Shown here: positions 23,702 to 33,988 of the stretch, piece by piece
Numbering within the stretch: position 1 is the first letter of the stretch
Layout of the letters: each line of letters begins with the position of its first letter
From: an uncultured Flavobacteriales bacterium
Lineage (GTDB): Bacteria; Bacteroidota; Bacteroidia; Flavobacteriales_D; Parvicellaceae
Length of the DNA: 42,851 nt
Direction of reading: 5' to 3'
NCBI GenBank assembly: GCA_905480225.1
Contig: CAJQPO010000056.1
Span: forward strand, 1 to 42,851
Translations under genes and position numbers: made by a program
Notes under the pieces: model-generated
What the model saw: the letters and a program-made list of their open reading frames with translations, nothing else
What the model was told of the DNA's origin: nothing
Databases searched by the model: none

Positions 23702-25034
23702 AACGAATTACGCTCTATCCTTGTTCTTAATTCTTCCAATTGTTTTCATTGGTTATTGGATAGATCGGCATGAGAGCGTTTGGTTGTTGAGTTGTTTCGC
23801 CATTTCTTTTGCAGGATATATCACCTTGTTAAGGTCAAAAAAATGCACTTTAAAAGAACTGTTAGTCATTGGGATTCTTGTCAGGTTGTTTTTACTGGGT
23901 GCTACGCCAAAGCTTTCCGATGATTATTACCGATTTGCTTTTGATGGGCATTTGACTATATCCGGTGAGAACCCATATACGGTTCTGCCAATCGAAATTG
24001 AAGAACGCTCTGATTTTGAAACGAGTTTAGTAAACAAAATGAATTCACCTCAATACTACTCTGTTTACCCACCAATTAATCAAATATTTTTCAGTTTGCC
24101 GTCTTTTTTTTCGGGTGAAGATTTGATTATTTACACCTTAGTTTTGAGGTTGCTAATTGTCTTGTTTGAAATATTAATGGCCTTGCTACTGCTGAAGTTG
24201 CTGCAATTCTTTGATAAAGACCTGCAGCTATTCGCTCTTTATTTCCTTAACCCATTAGTTATTGTTGAGCTAACTGGTAATCTGCATTTTGAGGGTGTGA
24301 CCATGTTCTTTTTTTTATTGTCTATTTTCTTTCTGGTAACAGGTAGAAATGTGCGCTCAGGAATCGTATACGCAATTGCCGTAGGTACGAAGTTAATTCC
24401 TCTTCTTTTCCTTCCTTTTTTCATCAAGCGACTAAAGCGCCAATCGATAGGCTATTTTGTTACTGTAGTATTGATGACACTTATTTTATTTATTCCCTTT
24501 GTAGACGAGAAGTTATTGGGGAACATAGTCAGCAGTGTTGATTTGTATTTTCATAAATTCATGTTTAATGGCTCCTTATTTTATGTAATGAATATTTTCT
24601 TGCATCAGTTTACAGGGTTTGAATATAATTTACATTTATTAGGTGATTTTACTCCTTTTATTGTACTATTCGCTGTGCTGTTAATGGCTGTGCTTGAGAA
24701 AAATAAGGGGTGGTTAGCGCTCTTTAAATCAGTGCTTTTTTCTTTGCTTATTTATTATTCAATTGCTTCTATTGTGCATCCTTGGTATGTAATCAATTTA
24801 ATGGTAGTGGCATTATTCACAAATTATCGCTTTCCTTATGTTTGGTCTGCGTTGGTCTTATTGAGCTATGTTGCTTATAAAGGGGATGGCCTGGTAATGG
24901 AATCTACGGCTTTATTAATCGTTGAATACGTGATACTCTCAGTTGTGATTGGTTTCGAATTGATTCGAGAACACAGGAGGAAAGTTGATGGACCACATAT
25001 GGTCGGAATTAGCACGAAAACTTTACACCAATAA
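23691..25034 (+). CDS. GT-C fold membrane mannosyltransferase-like protein
   Basis: The 447-residue protein has about ten membrane helices. The first outer loop carries the GT-C signature LSDDYYRFAFDGHLTISGENPY (D77, D78, R81, D85, N94-P95-Y96; shown as a named region). YPPINQIFF and NLHFEGV follow in later loops. These are typical of polyprenyl-phosphate-dependent hexosyltransferases (GT87 or PimE/MptB-like), which transfer a sugar on the outer face of the membrane. It would pair naturally with the polyprenyl-phosphate GT2 enzyme encoded upstream. Its last 26 coding bases overlap the convergent phosphatase gene. Confidence 0.78.
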   Translation: MQSKTNYALSLFLILPIVFIGYWIDRHESVWLLSCFAISFAGYITLLRSKKCTLKELLVIGILVRLFLLGATPKLSDDYYRFAFDGHLTISGENPYTVLPIEIEERSDFETSLVNKMNSPQYYSVYPPINQIFFSLPSFFSGEDLIIYTLVLRLLIVLFEILMALLLLKLLQFFDKDLQLFALYFLNPLVIVELTGNLHFEGVTMFFFLLSIFFLVTGRNVRSGIVYAIAVGTKLIPLLFLPFFIKRLKRQSIGYFVTVVLMTLILFIPFVDEKLLGNIVSSVDLYFHKFMFNGSLFYVMNIFLHQFTGFEYNLHLLGDFTPFIVLFAVLLMAVLEKNKGWLALFKSVLFSLLIYYSIASIVHPWYVINLMVVALFTNYRFPYVWSALVLLSYVAYKGDGLVMESTALLIVEYVILSVVIGFELIREHRRKVDGPHMVGISTKTLHQ

Positions 25035-27126
25035 CAAGAACATCATCTACTTGTTCTATATCACCCATCCAGGAAGTGAACGATTTTTCTAATTCTTGAT
25101 GTTGCTGGTCCATGTTTTTGGCTTGAATCTCAATGAGTAGCTTTTTGAATTTGCCATACATGAATTTTTTTCCTTTCGGGCCGCCAAATTGATCCGGAAA
25201 CCCATCGGAAAATGAATAGATTGTGTCGCCATCTAGTAATTCAAACTCGACATTATTGAATTTCAGATGATTGTTGTCGTCATATGCGCCAATAGGCCGT
25301 TTGTCTCCTTTGATTTCGATTAACTCTTGGTTTCGAATAATATACACGGGATTTTTCGCCCCAGAATAGATGAGTTTTCTATTTGCCTGGTCGATAGCAC
25401 AAAGAGCTATATCCATGCCATCGCGAATGGTTTCTTCTTTATATTCAGAATGAAAGGTTTCTAAAATTCCCTTATTTAAAAAGTCAAGTGCCTCCGCAGG
25501 GGAATTCACTGATTCGTCAAATTTTCCCAGCCTTAAAAAATTTTGACCAACAATGTGGACGAGGGCTCCAGGTACACCGTGCCCGGTGCAATCACCTGCG
25601 GCATAGACAATGATTTTATGACCGTTTTTTGGTACAACCTCTTCAATCCAGAAAAAGTCACCAGAAACGATGTCACGCGGCTTGAACAAAACAAAAGAAT
25701 TCGGAAGCAGCGCTTTGAATTTCTTAAGGCTCGGCAGTACCGCTTTTTGAATTCTTTCTGCATATTTGATACTGGCCATAATGTCTTCATTCTTTTCTTT
25801 AAGTACTTCTTTTTGTAACTCAACTTCATGGGTTCGTTCTTGCACTTGCTGTTCTAGTTTATTGTTGATGTTGGCCATGAATTCATTCTTTTCTGCCAGT
25901 TGTTCAAGTAAAAGCTTTTGTGCATCTTCTTTTTCGTTTTGGAGATGGCGGTATTTGTTCGCCATCGAAACAGAGAGCAGTGCAATTTCAATGATTGTTC
26001 CGGCTTTCAATACGTTCTCTGTAAGTGCTGGAGAATTAATGATGCTGAAGTTTCCAAGTATAAATAAAATCGCACTACCAATCAGAATCACAAAACCCAA
26101 GGTAAAGAATGGATCAATGGTGTGTTTTTTCTTTCTTAAATAAAGGTTTGAAATTAGAATCAAAAGAACCGACAAAAGGCTAAATACATTCACTAATGGA
26201 TAGGCAAGTACATAAGTCCTACCTGGTATTAAAGAGGCAATTGTGATTAGACTAATAAGAATTATCGAATATTTGAATAACTGATTTAGCTTGTGGGATC
26301 TTTGCGGCAGTTTCAGATAATTTTTAGCAAATAATAATAGGAACAGGACAGTCACCCCAGCAATTAAGAGAACAAAATGTTGTGTCATGTAACCTCCAGA
26401 TGTAAAGATGAACTGGTGTGTAAAACCATCTAATGAGAATTGCAGTAACCCTGAAGCGAGCACATAAAATATGTAATAAAGAAAAGTTCGATCTTTAAGT
26501 AGCACATAGAAAACAAAATAAATGAGGAATACGAAAGCAAAGATTCCGTATGTGAATCCCAGAAAAAGTTGTTCCTTTTGATTACTCTTTTCAAAAGTAG
26601 TTTTGTCCCATAAAATAAATGGCAATGAAATAATTTCGCCATCACTTTTAAGTTCTAGCCAGAAATTTTTCTGTTCACCCGGTTTTAAATAAATGGGAAT
26701 GAGTGATTTTTGATGCGTGTATATTTTGTCATTAAATGGTAAGGCATCTCCAGATTTTTTTGATGTCAGCAAAGCTCCGGAATTATGGTATTCATACAAA
26801 TTGACTACATTGGTGATGGGACGAGCTACTTCAAGAAATAGCTGAATTTCTTTACCCTTGCTATTGTCAATGATAAAATTAGAATGCCATGAAGAAGTGG
26901 TGAAGTCTAAGTTTTCTCTAGAATTTTTAATTTCTCTTCCTACGTAGTTATACCTGCCCTTCAGAATGTCTTCTATTGTCGAATTACCAGTAGGATCTTC
27001 ATAAATGGTTAACTCGTTTGCAATCGAACGATTCAAATTGGTAGCTGCTGTAGTAATAATTGATTGTGCGAATGAATGAATGGTAAACGTTAGGGAAAGA
27101 ATAAGAAAGAGCAAACTCTTGAGCAT
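25009..27126 (-). CDS. 7TM-DISM sensor with SpoIIE/PP2C-type phosphatase output
   Basis: I chose ATG at 27126 (705 residues), because the longer frame needs a TTG at 27141. A signal peptide (to about residue 20) precedes an extracellular beta-sandwich DISMED2-like domain (about 25-170). Seven membrane helices follow (about 187-390), then a coiled coil (about 393-455) and a SpoIIE phosphatase domain (about 465-705). Phosphatase motifs are SGDFFWIE, AGDCTGHGVPGA, DGMDIAL, FSDGFPDQFGG and DDVLVIGV. Bacteroidota use 7TMR-DISM proteins to sense extracellular, often sugar-related ligands. It follows xerD by 19 bases and converges with the GT-C gene, sharing 26 bases of sequence on opposite strands. 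Confidence 0.9.
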   Translation of the reverse strand: MLKSLLFLILSLTFTIHSFAQSIITTAATNLNRSIANELTIYEDPTGNSTIEDILKGRYNYVGREIKNSRENLDFTTSSWHSNFIIDNSKGKEIQLFLEVARPITNVVNLYEYHNSGALLTSKKSGDALPFNDKIYTHQKSLIPIYLKPGEQKNFWLELKSDGEIISLPFILWDKTTFEKSNQKEQLFLGFTYGIFAFVFLIYFVFYVLLKDRTFLYYIFYVLASGLLQFSLDGFTHQFIFTSGGYMTQHFVLLIAGVTVLFLLLFAKNYLKLPQRSHKLNQLFKYSIILISLITIASLIPGRTYVLAYPLVNVFSLLSVLLILISNLYLRKKKHTIDPFFTLGFVILIGSAILFILGNFSIINSPALTENVLKAGTIIEIALLSVSMANKYRHLQNEKEDAQKLLLEQLAEKNEFMANINNKLEQQVQERTHEVELQKEVLKEKNEDIMASIKYAERIQKAVLPSLKKFKALLPNSFVLFKPRDIVSGDFFWIEEVVPKNGHKIIVYAAGDCTGHGVPGALVHIVGQNFLRLGKFDESVNSPAEALDFLNKGILETFHSEYKEETIRDGMDIALCAIDQANRKLIYSGAKNPVYIIRNQELIEIKGDKRPIGAYDDNNHLKFNNVEFELLDGDTIYSFSDGFPDQFGGPKGKKFMYGKFKKLLIEIQAKNMDQQHQELEKSFTSWMGDIEQVDDVLVIGVKFSC

Positions 27127-27145
27127 GAACGAAGATAACAATTCT

Positions 27146-28060
27146 TTACCCTTTACTTCTGGGATGAAAATCGTTGATGGTTTGTTTCAAGAATGTCCTG
27201 TCTAAATGGGTGTAGATTTCCGTAGTGGTGATACTTTCATGGCCCAGCATTTCTTGAATTGCCCTTAAATCTGCTCCGCCTTCTATGAGGTGCGTTGCAA
27301 AAGAATGCCTAAATGTATGTGGTGAAATGGCTTTTTGTAAGCCTGCTTTTTCGGCTAGTCGTTTGATAATGGTGAAAATCATCACTCTTGTTAATGACTT
27401 TCCACGTCGATTTAAAAATACAAAATCTTCAAAATCTGGCTGAATCGGCTGATGGATCCGAACTTGATTTAGATAGAGATAAATATAATGAATCGCTTGT
27501 TGCCCAATGGGGACTAAACGCTCTTTGTCACCTTTGCCAATTATTTTAATAAAGGCGTCTTTGAAGTAGATGTTTGAGATTTTTAGATTAATTAATTCTG
27601 ATACACGCAGTCCGCAACTGTATAACACTTCTAATATCGCCTTATTTCGTTCGCCTTCTGGCGTGGAACGATCAATTGTGTTGATAAGGGTATCTATTTC
27701 TTCAATGGACAATGTGTCCGGCAGTTTCCGGCCTAGTTTGGGAGCTTCGATGAGTTCTGTGGGGTCTGATTTTATTTCATTTTCAAGCAGTAAATATTTA
27801 TAGAAAGCTTTTATTCCAGATAATATTCGTGCTTGTGACCTTGGGCTCAATCCCAATTGGGCAATATACTTCAGGAATAATTGAACGTCTTCCATTGTAA
27901 CCTCTTTGCATGATGGCAGGTCATTCAAAGTAGCATATTGAGCAAGTTTATTGACATCACGTATATAAGCATCAATAGAGTTCGTACTGAGTGACTTCTC
28001 TAGTCTGATATAAGCTTTAAATCCGTTAATATATATGTTCCATCCCACTAAAGGTAACAT
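27146..28060 (-). CDS. xerD: Tyrosine recombinase XerD (chromosome dimer resolution)
   Basis: The 304-residue protein has an N-terminal SAM-like core-binding domain (about 5-95) and a catalytic domain (about 115-300). All active residues are present: R152 (LRVSEL), K176 (GKGDKE), H248 and R251 (HTFRHSFATHL), H274 (LGHESI) and the nucleophile Y283 (EIYTHL). Length and motif spacing fit cellular XerC/XerD, which resolve chromosome dimers at dif, rather than a phage integrase. No att or dif site is obvious nearby. The D assignment rests on general similarity. Confidence 0.9.
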   Translation of the reverse strand: MLPLVGWNIYINGFKAYIRLEKSLSTNSIDAYIRDVNKLAQYATLNDLPSCKEVTMEDVQLFLKYIAQLGLSPRSQARILSGIKAFYKYLLLENEIKSDPTELIEAPKLGRKLPDTLSIEEIDTLINTIDRSTPEGERNKAILEVLYSCGLRVSELINLKISNIYFKDAFIKIIGKGDKERLVPIGQQAIHYIYLYLNQVRIHQPIQPDFEDFVFLNRRGKSLTRVMIFTIIKRLAEKAGLQKAISPHTFRHSFATHLIEGGADLRAIQEMLGHESITTTEIYTHLDRTFLKQTINDFHPRSKG

Positions 28061-28135: not shown

Positions 28136-29374
28136 CTATAATTTGTACACGGTGAGACCACTCCTGAGTTTAGGTTCTATATACGTGCTCTTTGGAGGCA
28201 TTATGTTGTTAGTATCAGCAACATGCATCAAGTCTCTTACAGAAACAGGGTAGAGGCCAAATGCAATTTTTGCTAAACCGTTGTCTACTTTTTTTTGTAA
28301 TCCCTTCATGCCTGTTTTGCCATTGAGGAATGAAATTCGAGAATCCGTTTTTAAATCTTTAATTCCAAGAATAGGATGTAAGATTAATTTACTCAAAATT
28401 CGAGGGTCTAAATGGTCTGTTGGATTGTCGGATGTTGGAAGTTGAATCAAATTTAATTTATACCAATTGCCCTGAAGATACATGGCAAATTCATGCTTCT
28501 TAGCAGGGCTGAATACTTTCTTCATTCGAGAAACTTCGAAGGAATTCTCTAGCATGGCGATAATTTCTTCAACAGAACGATTATTTAGGTCCGAAACCAG
28601 TCGGTTGAAATCATAAATTTTTAACGAACCTTCAGGGATTAAATAGGCCATGAAATAGCTAGAACCCAAATTTCTATTGGCGACATTATTCGCTGCTAAT
28701 CGCTCATTCCCTAACAATGCTGAACTTGCACATCGATGATGGCCATCTGCAATGTATAAGTTGTTGATAGCATCAAATTGGTGAGTAAGTTCTTGAATTA
28801 CCTGGGGTTGATCAATAACCCAAAGTTCATGTTTTAATGTGTCTGTACTGGTATATTCATATTCGGGTCTTTTACTCATTAAACCTTTTTGCAGCTGCAT
28901 TATTTCCTTGTTCTCTTTATAGGCTAATAACACAGGTTCGGCATTGAACCCACAAACATCCAGGTACATTTTGAAGGTCTCTTCTCGAGCACTTATCGTT
29001 TCTTCGTGGATTTTTATTTTTCCCTTGTTGTATTCATCAATGGAGGCACCTACGATTAAACCAACAAATTCATGGTCATTGGCTGTTTGCCTGTACATGT
29101 AAAAAGACGGGATATCATCTTGCACAAAGATTCCTTCCTTACGAAACTGATTGAACTTATCCCTGACTTTTTCAAATCGCTCAATGGTGTTGGGTTCGGT
29201 TTTGTCTGCCTTTCTAAATTCAGGATTAATAATATGTATAAACGAATAGGGGTTATGAATTAATTTGGCCTTTAGTATTTGTTTTGTATAGGAATAGTAG
29301 GGTCGGGTTGCGACAAGATGTGCCTTATCTCTAACGGGACGAATTGCTTTGAAAGGAACTATTTTGGCACACAT
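28136..29374 (-). CDS. DUF1015 family protein, possibly a serine-kinase-like enzyme
   Basis: The 412-residue protein matches DUF1015: PFKAIRPVRDKAHLVATRPY near the start (residues 7-26), KIKIHEETISAREE (119-132) and LYIADGHHRCASSAL (206-220). The DGHHR block (D210-R214) recalls ParB/SerK-fold enzymes, including ADP-dependent free-serine kinase. The gene follows serC and serA in the same direction with a 77-base gap. Position and motif together suggest a role in serine or phosphoserine metabolism, but this is inference. No membrane helix or signal peptide is present. Confidence 0.85.
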   Translation of the reverse strand: MCAKIVPFKAIRPVRDKAHLVATRPYYSYTKQILKAKLIHNPYSFIHIINPEFRKADKTEPNTIERFEKVRDKFNQFRKEGIFVQDDIPSFYMYRQTANDHEFVGLIVGASIDEYNKGKIKIHEETISAREETFKMYLDVCGFNAEPVLLAYKENKEIMQLQKGLMSKRPEYEYTSTDTLKHELWVIDQPQVIQELTHQFDAINNLYIADGHHRCASSALLGNERLAANNVANRNLGSSYFMAYLIPEGSLKIYDFNRLVSDLNNRSVEEIIAMLENSFEVSRMKKVFSPAKKHEFAMYLQGNWYKLNLIQLPTSDNPTDHLDPRILSKLILHPILGIKDLKTDSRISFLNGKTGMKGLQKKVDNGLAKIAFGLYPVSVRDLMHVADTNNIMPPKSTYIEPKLRSGLTVYKL

Positions 29375-29407
29375 TGTTTGTTGTAAATTACGGTAAAGAC
29401 CAAATTC

Positions 29408-29432
29408 AAAAAATCAATTGGTTTGATTTTTT
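29408..29432 (-). terminator. AT-rich perfect hairpin between serA and the DUF1015 gene
   Basis: AAAAAATCAA (29408-29417) and TTGATTTTTT (29423-29432) form a 10-bp stem with a five-base loop, ending in a T run on either strand. It could act as a partial terminator or 3' processing stop for the serCA message. The stem is almost all A-T, so its strength is uncertain. Confidence 0.4.
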
Positions 29433-29451
29433 AAGGTTATATTATTGCATG

Positions 29452-30408
29452 CTATTTTGAAAAATACGCTATAATTTTATCTGCTAGTTCTGTTCCTATT
29501 CGGTCTTGTGCTTCTACGGTTGCCGCCCCAATGTGCGGTGTTAGCGCCATATTAGGAACACTTAAAACATCCGCACGAGGTGATGGTTCTCCAACAAATA
29601 CATCTAATGCACACGCAGCGACCTTTCCACTTTTGCAAGCACTCAATAAAGCGTCTTCATCGATAACTCCACCACGAGCAGCATTAACAATTCTAACTCC
29701 GTTCTTCATTTTATCGAATTCATTAGCCCCAAGGATAGCTTGTCCATTTTCAGGCATAGGAACATGCATTGAAATATAGTCCGCCGTCTCTAGCAATTCG
29801 TCAAGTGTCGTTGTGGAGATCGTTGTTGTAACGGTTTGCTCGGCAACTGAAACATGCAGTTGGGCCTGAGACATAAATGGGTCATAAGCAATTACGTTCA
29901 TCCCACAACCTAATGCATATGTGGCCGCTGACTGACCGATTCTCCCGAAACCAATAAAGCCAATCGTTTTTCCTCTTAGCTCAACACCTTTTGCATATTT
30001 CTTTTTTAATGATTTAAATTCACTAACTCCGTTTAAGGGCATATTCCTGTTGGAATCATACACGCTTCTGGATATACTGAATAGATGTGCCATTACAAGC
30101 TCTGCAACAGATTGGGACGAAGCTGCCGGGGTATTTATTACTTCTCTACCTATTGACCTTGCATAAGCAACATCTATATTATCCATTCCAACTCCACCAC
30201 GACCAATTAATTGCAATCCAGGACAGGCATCAATTAGGTCTTGTCTTACTTTCGTTGCGCTTCTTACTAGTAAGGCCGCATAATTTTCATTATTGATAGT
30301 AGAAATCAAATCTCCTTGAGGAACAGTTTCTGTAGTTACTTTATATCCTGCCGCTTCTAATTTTTCTTTTCCTGATTCGGAAATACCGTCGTTAGCTAAA
30401 ATTTTCAT
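29452..30408 (-). CDS. serA: D-3-phosphoglycerate dehydrogenase (short form)
   Basis: The 318-residue protein is a D-2-hydroxyacid dehydrogenase. NAD binds at GFGRIG (153-158), and the catalytic set is R245 (NAARGG), E274 (VGEPSP) and H292 (TPHIGA). It lacks the C-terminal ACT or ASB regulatory domains of long SerA, so serine feedback through an ACT domain is not expected. The assignment as SerA rather than another hydroxyacid dehydrogenase rests on its one-base overlap (TAATG) with serC. Together the two carry out the first two steps of serine synthesis. Confidence 0.92.
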   Translation of the reverse strand: MKILANDGISESGKEKLEAAGYKVTTETVPQGDLISTINNENYAALLVRSATKVRQDLIDACPGLQLIGRGGVGMDNIDVAYARSIGREVINTPAASSQSVAELVMAHLFSISRSVYDSNRNMPLNGVSEFKSLKKKYAKGVELRGKTIGFIGFGRIGQSAATYALGCGMNVIAYDPFMSQAQLHVSVAEQTVTTTISTTTLDELLETADYISMHVPMPENGQAILGANEFDKMKNGVRIVNAARGGVIDEDALLSACKSGKVAACALDVFVGEPSPRADVLSVPNMALTPHIGAATVEAQDRIGTELADKIIAYFSK

Positions 30409-31481
30409 TATCCGTGCTTTTCTTTTAGTTCTTTCATTATGTTAACCAGTTCCATTACACTTTCAAAAGGAAGTGCATTATACATTGATGCTCTATATCC
30501 ACCTACAGAACGGTGACCTTTGATGCCTGAAATGTTGGCTTCTTGCCACATTTTATTAAACGTGTCAGTTAAGGCTGCTTCTTTTAGTAAAAAAGTCGCG
30601 TTCATAGTGCTTCGATCTTCAACAGCGGTTGTCCCTTCAAATAATGGATTGTTATCTATCTCATTATAAAGTAGTGTTGCTTTTTTTTCGTTGACACTTT
30701 CAATATGCCCAATTCCACCGTTTTTTTTGAGCCATCTCAAATTTAGCATGGATACGTAAATCGCAAATACGGGTGGGGTATTGAACATGGAGTCTTTGGT
30801 GTGATGTGTGTTCAAGTCGAGCATTGTTGGGATAGGGATACTCGAGTTACCTAAAATACTTTCTTTAACAATATAGAGCGTTGTTCCTGCTGGTCCCATA
30901 TTTTTCTGAGCACCGGCATAAATAATATCAAAGTCAGCAACATTAATTTTTCTACTGAAGATATCAGAGCTCATGTCACACACTAATGGTGTGTCTGATA
31001 TTGGGAAATCTTTGTATTGCGTGCCCGAAATGGTATTGTTCGATGTGATGTGAAGAAAGTCATATTCAGAGCCTGCACGAATGTCTTTTGGGATGTAAGA
31101 GTAATTTTTATCTTCAGAAGAGGCAATGATATCCAATTCCCCTACAAAAGAGAACTCTTTTGCCGCTTTCTTAGCCCAAGCACCGGTATTTACATAGGCT
31201 GCCTTTTTTTGATCTCTTATCATGTTATAAGCAACCGTTAAAAAACCCATGCTTGCACCTCCTTGTAGAAATAGAACAGTGTAGCCATCAGGCACTTCCA
31301 ATAATTCTTTAACTAGAGATCGAGCTTCTTCCATTACGGAAATAAAGCTTGGACTTCTATGTGAGATTTCAATAATAGATAGACCGAGCTGATCAAAATT
31401 TAATAGTGCTTGCGAAGCCTCTTCAAAAACCGCTTGGGGTAATACGCATGGACCTGCGCTGAAATTGTGAACGTGTGCCAT
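30408..31481 (-). CDS. serC: Phosphoserine aminotransferase
   Basis: The 357-residue PLP enzyme begins MAHVHNFSAGPCVLP, the SerC hallmark. It has EISHRSPSF (38-46), a phosphate-binding FLQGGAS (71-77) and the Schiff-base lysine K193 in YAGAQKNMGPAG. HRSVGGYRASMYNA near the C-terminus contacts the phosphate of the substrate. It converts 3-phosphohydroxypyruvate and glutamate to phosphoserine. Its stop overlaps the serA start by one base. No serB gene is seen in the window. Confidence 0.96.
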   Translation of the reverse strand: MAHVHNFSAGPCVLPQAVFEEASQALLNFDQLGLSIIEISHRSPSFISVMEEARSLVKELLEVPDGYTVLFLQGGASMGFLTVAYNMIRDQKKAAYVNTGAWAKKAAKEFSFVGELDIIASSEDKNYSYIPKDIRAGSEYDFLHITSNNTISGTQYKDFPISDTPLVCDMSSDIFSRKINVADFDIIYAGAQKNMGPAGTTLYIVKESILGNSSIPIPTMLDLNTHHTKDSMFNTPPVFAIYVSMLNLRWLKKNGGIGHIESVNEKKATLLYNEIDNNPLFEGTTAVEDRSTMNATFLLKEAALTDTFNKMWQEANISGIKGHRSVGGYRASMYNALPFESVMELVNIMKELKEKHG

Positions 31482-31573: not shown

Positions 31574-32458
31574 TTATTGACGAGGTTGAGCATCATCGGG
31601 CATATTGTAATATTTGTCATTTTGAGACTTTTTTGAGCGAGCATCCGGATCTTTATGAAAGAACCATTTTCCTTTGTCTAATTGAAAGGCATCAAAGCTA
31701 CCATCTGGAAACAGGTGCTCAGGATGTCCTTTAAGTGCTCCGGAGGATGGAGAAAGATGGTCAAAAACAATTAGAGTACTCTTTTTTGTGTCGTATTGCT
31801 TAAGTGACATGGAGGCTTGAGCGGAATACTCAAAAATAACCCTTCGCAACCATTGCCCATCCTCCTGTCTGAAAATTGGAAATCCAAATTTTATTTTAGA
31901 ACCTGAAAAGGCCATGACATCAATTAATTTCTTTTTTGACAATTTATTATTCCCATCCCATCCTAAAAGTAAATAATAGGTTTTCGTCCCTTTTTCAAAG
32001 GGAATAATACGGTAGTATAAGGCACCAAACCAATTTCTGTTGTCTAGTGCTTTTTGTTCTGGTTCAGAATCTATTAATGAAGCCGATTTGTCAAAAAGTT
32101 CCGTTATTAAATAACGTTCTCTACGCTTATCATAGTGCATAACCAAACCGAAATAGAGATGCTCTCCATTTGGTTTTTCAAGATTCCAATTAAATAAGCG
32201 AAATGCTTTATCGGGTGCAATCATTGTGCCCATGAGTTTACCCAAAGAATCAAATGCATAATTAAAAGACTCATCGTGGCTCAATGCGGCCCTGAGTGCC
32301 TTTTTAACAATTGCGTTCTGCTCAAATCTTGTTTCGTAAGTCGGTTGATTTCTCATTGAAATTAACGCAGTAACGACATTGTTTTCTAACTCTTTCATCT
32401 CTGCAGAATACAGGGAAAGGGGAAAACATAGAATGATTAATATTTGAAATATCCTCAC
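31574..32458 (-). CDS. Secreted protein of unknown function
   Basis: The 294-residue protein has a signal peptide (to about residue 18, LYSAE) and starts at GTG 32458 (MRIFQILIILCFPLSLYSAE). The mature part has a helical N-terminal third and a beta-rich remainder with YYLLLGWDGNNKLSKKKLID (159-178) and VIFEYSAQASMSLKQYD. It ends in a hydrophilic tail (PDARSKKSQNDKYYNMPD). There is no T9SS C-terminal domain. I do not recognise the family by function. It lies between the ferredoxin gene and serC, with gaps of 58 and 92 bases. Confidence 0.72.
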   Translation of the reverse strand: MRIFQILIILCFPLSLYSAEMKELENNVVTALISMRNQPTYETRFEQNAIVKKALRAALSHDESFNYAFDSLGKLMGTMIAPDKAFRLFNWNLEKPNGEHLYFGLVMHYDKRRERYLITELFDKSASLIDSEPEQKALDNRNWFGALYYRIIPFEKGTKTYYLLLGWDGNNKLSKKKLIDVMAFSGSKIKFGFPIFRQEDGQWLRRVIFEYSAQASMSLKQYDTKKSTLIVFDHLSPSSGALKGHPEHLFPDGSFDAFQLDKGKWFFHKDPDARSKKSQNDKYYNMPDDAQPRQ

Positions 32459-32516: not shown

Positions 32517-32879
32517 TTAAAGTTGGTCTATCAGGTGTAGGGAATCTTTTTTTCTAAGTAACTCTTCGTCGGTTTCTCTAATCGCCTCGTCATCAATACA
32601 ACAATCAACAGGGCACACGGCAGCACATTGTGGTTCTTCATGAAAACCTTTACATTCTGTACATTTATCTGGTGCAATATAGTACACATCCATGTCTACT
32701 GGTTCTTGTTCGGCATTGGCATCGACAGAAATACCACTGGTTTGACCATTAACGAGTCCTTTTAAGGATGTGCCATCAGCGAATTTCCATTCTGCTCCTC
32801 CTTCATAGATTGCGGTGTTAGGACATTCTGGTTCACAAGCTCCACAATTAATGCATTCGTCGGTAATTCTAATCGCCAT
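32517..32879 (-). CDS. 4Fe-4S dicluster ferredoxin
   Basis: The 120-residue ferredoxin has two cluster sites. The first is C9-x2-C12-x2-C15-x3-C19-P ([12 protein letters not shown]). The second is C73-x2-C76-x8-C85-x3-C89-P ([18 protein letters not shown]), followed by C93 and C94. The eight-residue spacer in the second motif is that of Allochromatium-type ferredoxins. An insert of about 40 residues lies between the sites. It transfers electrons at low potential in the cytoplasm, with no dedicated partner visible. It diverges from the acyl-CoA reductase gene across a 56-base gap. Confidence 0.93.
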
Positions 32880-32935: not shown

Positions 32936-33988
32936 GTGTATTTGACAACAAAAGTGATTATTTCAGCATTTGATAAACTTGGAGAGGTAATGAAATCAGC
33001 AGGTCGGGATGAAATTTGGTCTGGATTTGAATTGGGTATTACGGAAAAAGAGTACAATCAGTTACTAGAAGTGATACTAACTTTAAAGCATAAGAATCAG
33101 TGGTTTACGCCTGAATCTGTGAGGAATTCTTTAATTTCTTGGAGTGAATTATTGAAAAAAAACAAATTAGAACATTGGGTGTCTGACTATGACATTTCGG
33201 AAGTTGATAAAAAGGTAGCAATAGTAATGGCGGGAAACATACCCTTGGTTGGTTTTCATGATTTGTTAAGCGTTGTTGTTTCGGGAAATACAGCTTTGGT
33301 TAAAATGAGTTCTGATGATAATGTTCTTTTACCCTGTCTGATACAAATGTTGTTTCATTACTGTCCTGAGCTAAAAGAACGAATTCAGATTGTAGAAAAA
33401 TTGGTTGAATTTGATGCCGTAATTGCAACTGGAAGCAATAATACTTCGCGCTATTTTGAATCTTATTTTGGACACGTACCTAATATTATACGTAAAAACA
33501 GAACATCTGTAGCTATTGTCAAAAATGATATATCTGAACATGATTTAAAGAATCTGGGTTCGGATATTTTCAATTATTTTGGATTAGGTTGCCGCAACGT
33601 CACTAAGGTCTATTTTGAAAAAGGCTTTCATCTAGATCGATTTTTTGAGGCAATATTTTCATTTGGCGAAATCATCAACATCAATAAGTACGCAAATAAT
33701 TATGATTATAATAAGGCCCTTTTCCTACTCAATAAGGAAATATTTCTAGAAAATGGCTTTCTTATAATTACTGAAAATGCGGCGCTTCATTCACCAATTG
33801 GCGTTTTACATTATGAATTTTTCTCTAATGAATCGGATGTATTACAAGATCTAAAACTGCAGAATGACCACATTCAATGTGTTGTTTCAGCTAATCACGT
33901 ATTGTATGGAAAAACGCAATTTCCAAATTTATCAGATTATGCGGATAATGTTGATACTTTGAAGTTCCTATCTGAATTGAATCAGTAG
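32936..33988 (+). CDS. Acyl-CoA reductase (LuxC-like)
   Basis: The 350-residue protein resembles the LuxC acyl-CoA reductase family of the aldehyde dehydrogenase fold. VAIVMAGNIPLVGFHD (about 93-108) is the cofactor-side signature. VIATGSNNTSRYFESYF follows, and GLGCRNVTKVYF supplies the catalytic cysteine C219. In other systems such enzymes reduce acyl-CoA or acyl-enzyme to an aldehyde. No luxAB or luxD/E gene is nearby, and the physiological product in Bacteroidota is not settled. I used GTG 32936, and TTG 32942 is an alternative. It is divergent from a ferredoxin gene, a possible functional pairing. Confidence 0.85.
   Translation: MYLTTKVIISAFDKLGEVMKSAGRDEIWSGFELGITEKEYNQLLEVILTLKHKNQWFTPESVRNSLISWSELLKKNKLEHWVSDYDISEVDKKVAIVMAGNIPLVGFHDLLSVVVSGNTALVKMSSDDNVLLPCLIQMLFHYCPELKERIQIVEKLVEFDAVIATGSNNTSRYFESYFGHVPNIIRKNRTSVAIVKNDISEHDLKNLGSDIFNYFGLGCRNVTKVYFEKGFHLDRFFEAIFSFGEIININKYANNYDYNKALFLLNKEIFLENGFLIITENAALHSPIGVLHYEFFSNESDVLQDLKLQNDHIQCVVSANHVLYGKTQFPNLSDYADNVDTLKFLSELNQ

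Follow-up and report, generated by a model that had tools for sequence, protein, structure and literature searches.

Which protein completes serine synthesis in a bacterium that carries serA and serC and in which no serB is found? The question is raised by a 42,851-nucleotide stretch of an uncultured Flavobacteriales bacterium (GenBank assembly GCA_905480225.1, contig CAJQPO010000056.1; the whole stretch is called the window here), where a gene for a DUF1015 protein stands next to serC and serA. An earlier note on this DNA had described the three genes as neighbours on the same strand, which we confirmed: they lie on the minus strand and are transcribed in the order serC, serA, DUF1015. Base 30408 is common to serC and serA, and 77 bases lie between serA and the DUF1015 gene.

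30408..31481, minus strand: serC, phosphoserine transaminase, 357 amino acids (NF003764, 459 bits; cut-off 253)
29452..30408, minus strand: serA, short-form phosphoglycerate dehydrogenase, 318 amino acids (TIGR01327, 290 bits)
28136..29374, minus strand: DUF1015 (PF06245) protein, 412 amino acids, predicted SerK-fold serine/phosphoserine phosphotransferase (Pfam and AlphaFold2 model)

The serA product has TIGR01327 as its best model, covering model positions 1–300 of 525 and scoring under that model's cut-off of 454. The third protein matches PF06245 at 296.9 bits (E 1.9e-88, residues 5–323), above the Pfam cut-off of 25.8 bits, and this is its sole Pfam match at E ≤ 0.1. SerB is a HAD-type phosphatase, whereas the DUF1015 protein has no HAD or SerB domain (Pfam and NCBIfam, E ≤ 0.1); what the two are proposed to have in common is the net reaction, phosphoserine to serine. 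The host genome (G000; 2.76 Mb, 96.2% complete) has a single DUF1015 copy and, with the window included, no match to the SerB model TIGR00338 at E ≤ 1e-3, so that the absence of serB noted earlier for the window extends to the assembly. The same model matched 14/14 control genomes, seven of them over cut-off; three controls carry DUF1015 (Bacteroides ihuae, Thermotoga maritima and Methanosarcina acetivorans) and all three also match SerB. On the evidence set out below, it is very probable that the window protein is a phosphotransferase acting on serine or phosphoserine. Its subfamily (clade A) is, on balance, likely to consist of SerK-fold phosphotransferases that convert O-phospho-L-serine to L-serine, replacing SerB.

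The first line of evidence is the fold. An AlphaFold2 model of the window protein, built from alignment A1 (the window protein plus 29 of 47 loci), had a mean predicted local distance difference test score of 85.4 and a predicted template modelling score of 0.85, with residues 21–60 weaker. The comparison with SerK and SbnI that had been proposed with the note gave a clear outcome: of the 350,542 PDB chains searched with Foldseek, nine matched at E ≤ 1e-3 (E 7.9e-9 to 3.4e-6), all of them Thermococcus kodakarensis SerK (five entries), its Pyrococcus furiosus homologue 1vk1 or SbnI (three entries), and rank 10 had E 0.05. With VIA-align, these nine scored Z 11.8–13.8 over 211–224 residues, matching model residues 89/98–412; the best (Z 13.8, 224 aligned, root mean square deviation 4.7) placed SerK residues 8–238 (of 241) on model residues 98–412. 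The next families were sulfiredoxin (Z 5.1), Noc (Z 4.7, 82 residues) and archaeal ParB (Z 3.6). As modelled, then, DUF1015 resembles the serine kinases as a whole, beyond the mere ParB fold. About 90 N-terminal residues fall outside the SerK match. The helix-turn-helix and C-terminal dimerization domains of the ParB/Noc CTPase clamp were not seen in DUF1015 (Pfam, E ≤ 0.1).

The closest relatives also differ from DUF1015. SerK (T. kodakarensis TK0378; PDB 5x0b–5x0k; PMC5120207) shares its fold and motifs; DUF1015 has about 90 more N-terminal residues, an insertion between two of these motifs (HE and DGHHR), and 17–19% identity in structure alignment. According to the available text of PMC5120207, SerK uses ADP, leaves ATP and pyrophosphate unused, and has its place in making cysteine and assimilating serine; DUF1015 lies in a serC–serA operon, and its pattern of occurrence suggests that the reaction runs in reverse. 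SbnI (PDB 5ujd, 5uje, 6nr6) is alike in fold (Z 11.8–12.5 over 211–214 residues) and unlike in belonging to a siderophore pathway (staphyloferrin B), as judged from a reference title in PMC12704722.

The second line of evidence is the active site. The earlier note had likened YIADGHHR, residues 207–214 of the window protein, to the active-site block of SerK, and profile alignment bears this out while adding two further motifs. The SerK chains were fetched using a P. furiosus sequence that was verified against the solved chains; none could be reached from DUF1015 by phmmer or hmmsearch against the PDB at E ≤ 10. The E30A and E30Q mutant chains (PDB 5x0e and 5x0j) locate the SerK catalytic Glu30 in K-P-H-E-Q. 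With hhalign, 25 DUF1015 rows aligned to SerK (residues 205–398 on 64–224) at E 1.6e-5 and probability 79, the SerK side being only two near-identical rows, and DGHHR and PPKST were paired with SerK DGHHR and SPKTT. A MAFFT alignment paired H123-E124 with SerK H29-E30, and P394–T397 aligns with SerK PKTT. By these sequence alignments, the catalytic HE, DGHHR and PKTT motifs of SerK all have DUF1015 counterparts, at the following positions:

29003..29008, minus strand: codons of H123-E124, aligned counterpart of SerK His29-Glu30; invariant in 81/81 rows
28733..28747, minus strand: codons of D210-G-H-H-R214, aligned counterpart of SerK D69-GHH-R73; invariant in 81/81 rows
28184..28201, minus strand: codons of M392-PPKS-T397, aligned counterpart of SerK Y218-SPKT-T223; invariant in 81/81 rows except S396 (78/81)

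The rows counted are 81 clade A sequences, many of them close relatives, among which H123, E124, D210, G211, H212, H213, R214, P394, K395 and T397 do not vary; L001 (the window's own copy) and L075 (truncated) were excluded from this count and from the tree below. Such conservation bears on the idea that DUF1015 is a non-catalytic nucleotide- or serine-binding regulator of serC–serA, working in the manner of a ParB switch. ParB-fold proteins do include switches, and a fusion written as 'DU1015' appears in the available text of PMC12704722 among 50 ParB-fold representatives picked for study. The invariance of the HE motif with the counterpart of catalytic Glu30, the lack of a DNA-binding domain by Pfam at E ≤ 0.1 and the occurrence of DUF1015 where SerB is missing all speak against a regulator, which we regard as very improbable.

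To follow the protein across genomes, the DUF1015 family had to be divided. Our sample comprised 238 Bacteroidota genomes, each at least 90% complete, of which 204 have DUF1015. Clade A, the window's subfamily, was set by a split at 300 bits, our own cut, in the score to profile A2 (the window protein plus 24 of 78 loci). These scores fell into two groups, 117 genomes scoring no less than 302 bits and the others no more than 231; the lowest retained score was 302.7 (a partial match, G037) and the next below it 231.2. In a 49-row tree, clade A (the window, Listeria, Enterococcus, Bacteroides and others) stood apart from three clade B rows (L083, L096, L097) with support 100/100, and Thiodictyon and Monoglobus formed long branches. 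Clade B is alike in belonging to PF06245 and in retaining HE, DGHHR and KST, and unlike in having K, N/Q, Q and W/Y in place of E131, H182, P394 and E400. Low-scoring genomes, mostly classed by score alone and outside the tree, mostly have no serC; low-scoring DUF1015 is carried by 54 genomes with SerB and without serC, and both of those inspected (L096, L097) were clade B. Pooling all DUF1015 matches gave a less clean occurrence picture, because the Pfam family spans at least two clades.

The clade B loci themselves (L096:5460-6743, L097:4755-6077 and L083:3107-4429) have no adjoining serC. By reading of the open reading frames (ORFs), an scpA-like gene and other unrelated genes are the neighbours in L096 and L097, and in Monoglobus (L083) the clade B gene precedes genes for homoserine dehydrogenase, homoserine kinase and aspartate kinase. 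The substrate of clade B may be a related amino acid.

Occurrence provided the third line of evidence. SerB was over the TIGR00338 cut-off of 144 bits in 71 of the 238 genomes and serC over the NF003764 cut-off in 136; matches of 50–144 bits to TIGR00338, a band of our own choosing, were classed as SerB-like. Clade A was found in 117 genomes, 114 of which have serC, and thus in 114/136 serC genomes vs 3/102 genomes without serC. Among serC genomes, clade A was present in 8/17 with SerB, in 10/17 with a SerB-like protein, and in 96/102 with neither (no match of at least 50 bits). Where serC was missing, clade A was present in 0/54 genomes with SerB, 0/10 with a SerB-like protein and 3/38 with neither; in G172, which has clade A and no serC, a different class V aminotransferase adjoins serA and DUF1015. 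A stricter set, serC genomes without any TIGR00338 match at E ≤ 1e-3, had clade A in 18/20, the host genome included; the two exceptions were G118 and G178, and G178 has a divergent DUF1015. Of the 13 genomes of a single genus (g8), seven had SerB only, four SerB and clade A, one a SerB-like protein only and one clade A only, and none was without all three. The serC genomes of four families (f4, f7, f8, f18) have no clade A.

Comparing DUF1015 with serB across genomes, as had been suggested with the note, therefore showed that clade A accompanies serC and is near-universal in serC genomes without SerB, and that SerB and DUF1015 tend to substitute for each other in serC genomes (Fisher p = 2.5e-7 for SerB or SerB-like vs clade A, without correction for relatedness). 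Where SerA and SerC are retained and SerB is missing, a conversion of phosphoserine to serine is still required. The note had allowed a serine or phosphoserine enzyme working in either direction; fold and occurrence support such an enzyme, and we favour the direction from phosphoserine to serine because of the occurrence pattern.

Gene neighbourhood agreed with co-occurrence. In 101 of the 114 genomes with serC and clade A, both genes are on one contig, at a distance of at most 300 bp in 61 and at most 5 kb in 91; 89/91 close pairs are on the same strand, in several gene orders with serC on either side of DUF1015. The order serC–serA–DUF1015 recurs in Listeria monocytogenes (L079), Enterococcus raffinosus (L081) and Bacteroides finegoldii (L084). 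A second Listeria record (L080; labelled plasmid, though chromosome-sized at 2.9 Mb) has serC, serA and DUF1015 and no SerB, its best TIGR00338 match being partial and at 33.4 bits vs the cut-off of 144; it carries other HAD and histidine-phosphatase proteins. A 1.77-Mb Prevotella record (L085) has the three genes close together and no SerB over cut-off (best TIGR00338 match 24.9 bits). We also compared the 15 genomes behind 15 of the 47 loci. The four with serC–serA–DUF1015 (L002, L003, L027, L029) had no SerB match; the eleven without serC or serA near DUF1015 had SerB (one), a SerB-like match (nine, in open frames of 546–655 amino acids) or neither (one, Bizionia paragorgiae). serC was over cut-off in 14 of the 15; in L035 the match was confined to 31 residues at the end of a contig.

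SerC is bifunctional in many bacteria. Because it serves both serine and vitamin B6 synthesis, the substrate of DUF1015 could instead be a different compound, phosphorylated or bearing a hydroxyl, in the vicinity of serine or vitamin B6 metabolism, for example 4-phosphohydroxythreonine. A YggS-like gene, named by ORF reading, adjoins and follows DUF1015 in Allomuricauda (L004). In G107 (L095), a yggS-like gene abutting serA lies together with serA and serC, and DUF1015 is absent; arrangements of DUF1015, the yggS-like gene, serA and serC look like reciprocal loss from one ancestral cluster. A substrate such as 4-phosphohydroxythreonine seems improbable: the serA partner in the window scores 290 bits as phosphoglycerate dehydrogenase vs 118 as PdxB, and the Listeria record with the operon also has PdxS (500 bits), so that SerC is not needed there for pyridoxal phosphate.

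Other phosphatases could nevertheless end the pathway. Weaker TIGR00338 matches occur in many of the 102 serC genomes with neither SerB nor a SerB-like match. We fetched 13 weak TIGR00338 stretches and scanned 10 proteins. Eight were MtnX-like HAD-IB phosphatases, over the TIGR01489 cut-off and at 34–44 bits to SerB, six from clade A genomes among these 102 and two from genomes without serC; the other two were nearest SerB (G074 and G227, already classed as SerB-like). The MtnX-like proteins (L153–L158, L163, L164) are 235–277 amino acids long, come from several Bacteroidota genomes and are possible moonlighting phosphoserine phosphatases. The members of the SerB-like band that were scanned (L098, L099, L101, L160, L161) were of several kinds. 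L160 and L161 are plain HAD-IB proteins that come closest to SerB; L101 joins a HAD protein to ACT and a portion of SerA; L098:5645-7552 (635 amino acids) and L099:2691-4574 (627 amino acids) are SerB–SerA–ACT fusions whose SerB part scores 75–77 bits and was therefore missed by the cut-off search.

These proteins give some substance to the proposal that DUF1015 is a forward serine kinase like SerK and SbnI, with another phosphatase, such as an MtnX-like HAD-IB protein, completing serine synthesis. The closest solved relatives of DUF1015 are serine kinases, SerB or a SerB-like protein coexists with clade A in 18/136 serC genomes, and an MtnX-like protein was found in 6/6 SerB-less clade A genomes followed up (G070, G109, G116, G140, G196, G236). 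A forward kinase would be futile, because SerC in the same operon already makes phosphoserine. It would also leave unexplained the presence of clade A in 18/20 serC genomes without any SerB-family match. The host genome, itself without a SerB match, offers just one weak PF12710 match, a YjjG nucleotidase (and no PF00300 match at E ≤ 0.01). We consider a forward kinase unlikely.

Several observations weigh against assigning the SerB step to clade A. The 18 serC genomes that carry clade A together with SerB or a SerB-like protein show that the two are not exclusive, and MtnX-like proteins, present in all six genomes above, could in principle dephosphorylate phosphoserine. G107 and G118 have serC and serA but lack both DUF1015 and any SerB match reaching 50 bits, and four f8 genomes with serC and no SerB have divergent DUF1015 only. 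The Fisher value overstates independence, as no species tree lies behind it. With the host genome 96% complete, the missing part could carry a SerB. T. kodakarensis SerK phosphorylates serine, and the words 'reverse' and 'equilibrium' are absent from the main text of PMC5120207. Glycine riboswitches and T-boxes at gathering score are absent from the window, L079, L081, L083 and L084. In the two genomes without SerB and DUF1015, serC–serA pairs lie at L094 (G118) and L095 (G107); G118 also has a HAD protein (L115, 45 bits to PF12710) that might fill the phosphoserine step there.

For the conversion of phosphoserine to serine by clade A, we infer substrate, direction, acceptor and the roles of single residues as follows. 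SerA and SerC would make phosphoserine from 3-phosphoglycerate, and DUF1015, the third gene of the operon, would take the phosphate off. Glu124, together with His123, would be placed at the hydroxyl of serine, like SerK Glu30; the phosphates would be held by DGHHR, and PPKST near the C-terminus would serve to close the pocket. Either water would receive the phosphate group, or an acceptor would do so (AMP/ADP, or phosphate with formation of pyrophosphate), most simply by the SerK reaction run backwards or by hydrolysis in the same pocket. On general thermodynamic grounds, transfer from phosphoserine to ADP or AMP is uphill, and transfer to phosphate, giving pyrophosphate, is nearer balance, so that pyrophosphate formation or hydrolysis appears likelier than nucleotide formation. 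Pyrophosphate–serine phosphotransferase exists as an enzyme class (EC 2.7.1.80).

The surroundings of the operon contain further genes. A xerD-type recombinase gene (27146-28060; TIGR02225, 350 bits) comes after DUF1015, and window positions 25009-27141 encode a 710-residue protein with 7TMR-DISM sensor and SpoIIE phosphatase domains. Directly upstream of serC is a 294-residue ORF (31574-32458), kept in L002 and L003, which neither Pfam nor NCBIfam matches at E ≤ 0.1. Also close to serC are a gene for a YfhL-type ferredoxin (32517-32879, minus strand) and a divergent gene for a LuxC-like acyl-CoA reductase (32936-33988, plus strand), a grouping that recurs in L002, L003 and L094.

Published work touches DUF1015 at several points. 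In the literature found to name it, no serine function is given in the available text; most subscription journals lay outside the search, so one may have been published elsewhere. An electron transport role, raised in the available text of PMC12828279, found no support in the present data. The accessible portion of PMC11316588 places DUF1015 of Porphyromonas alongside serC and an NAD-binding protein, and that of PMC3091722 lists serC among the genes important for replication in host cells in an L. monocytogenes mutant screen. We take COG4198 to be the DUF1015 group. Two papers, as far as their available texts go, favour assigning the SerB step to clade A: PMC2211319 found five COG4198 genes under glycine riboswitches, and PMC9026213 counts 450 gut genomes (diverse Firmicutes) with SerA and SerC and none of four SerB types. 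The available text of PMC7311316 notes serine-independent growth of Clostridium perfringens, whose SerB candidates are all of low confidence; such growth is also reported for Enterococcus faecalis, where the candidates for SerA or SerB are of low confidence.

With a single named family whose active site is defined, this gap, SerA and SerC without SerB, would become testable. That clade A is an energy-conserving phosphoserine:phosphate (or nucleotide) phosphotransferase, spread over two phyla and filling the SerB gap of gut genomes, is a tentative and rather doubtful extension; if true, the phosphate of phosphoserine would be saved as pyrophosphate or nucleotide at the end of serine synthesis, and not hydrolysed. 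If clade A does act on phosphoserine, a widespread DUF would gain a function, and the chemistry of free-serine kinases, described in a few archaea and in staphylococci, would reach into a housekeeping pathway common among bacteria.

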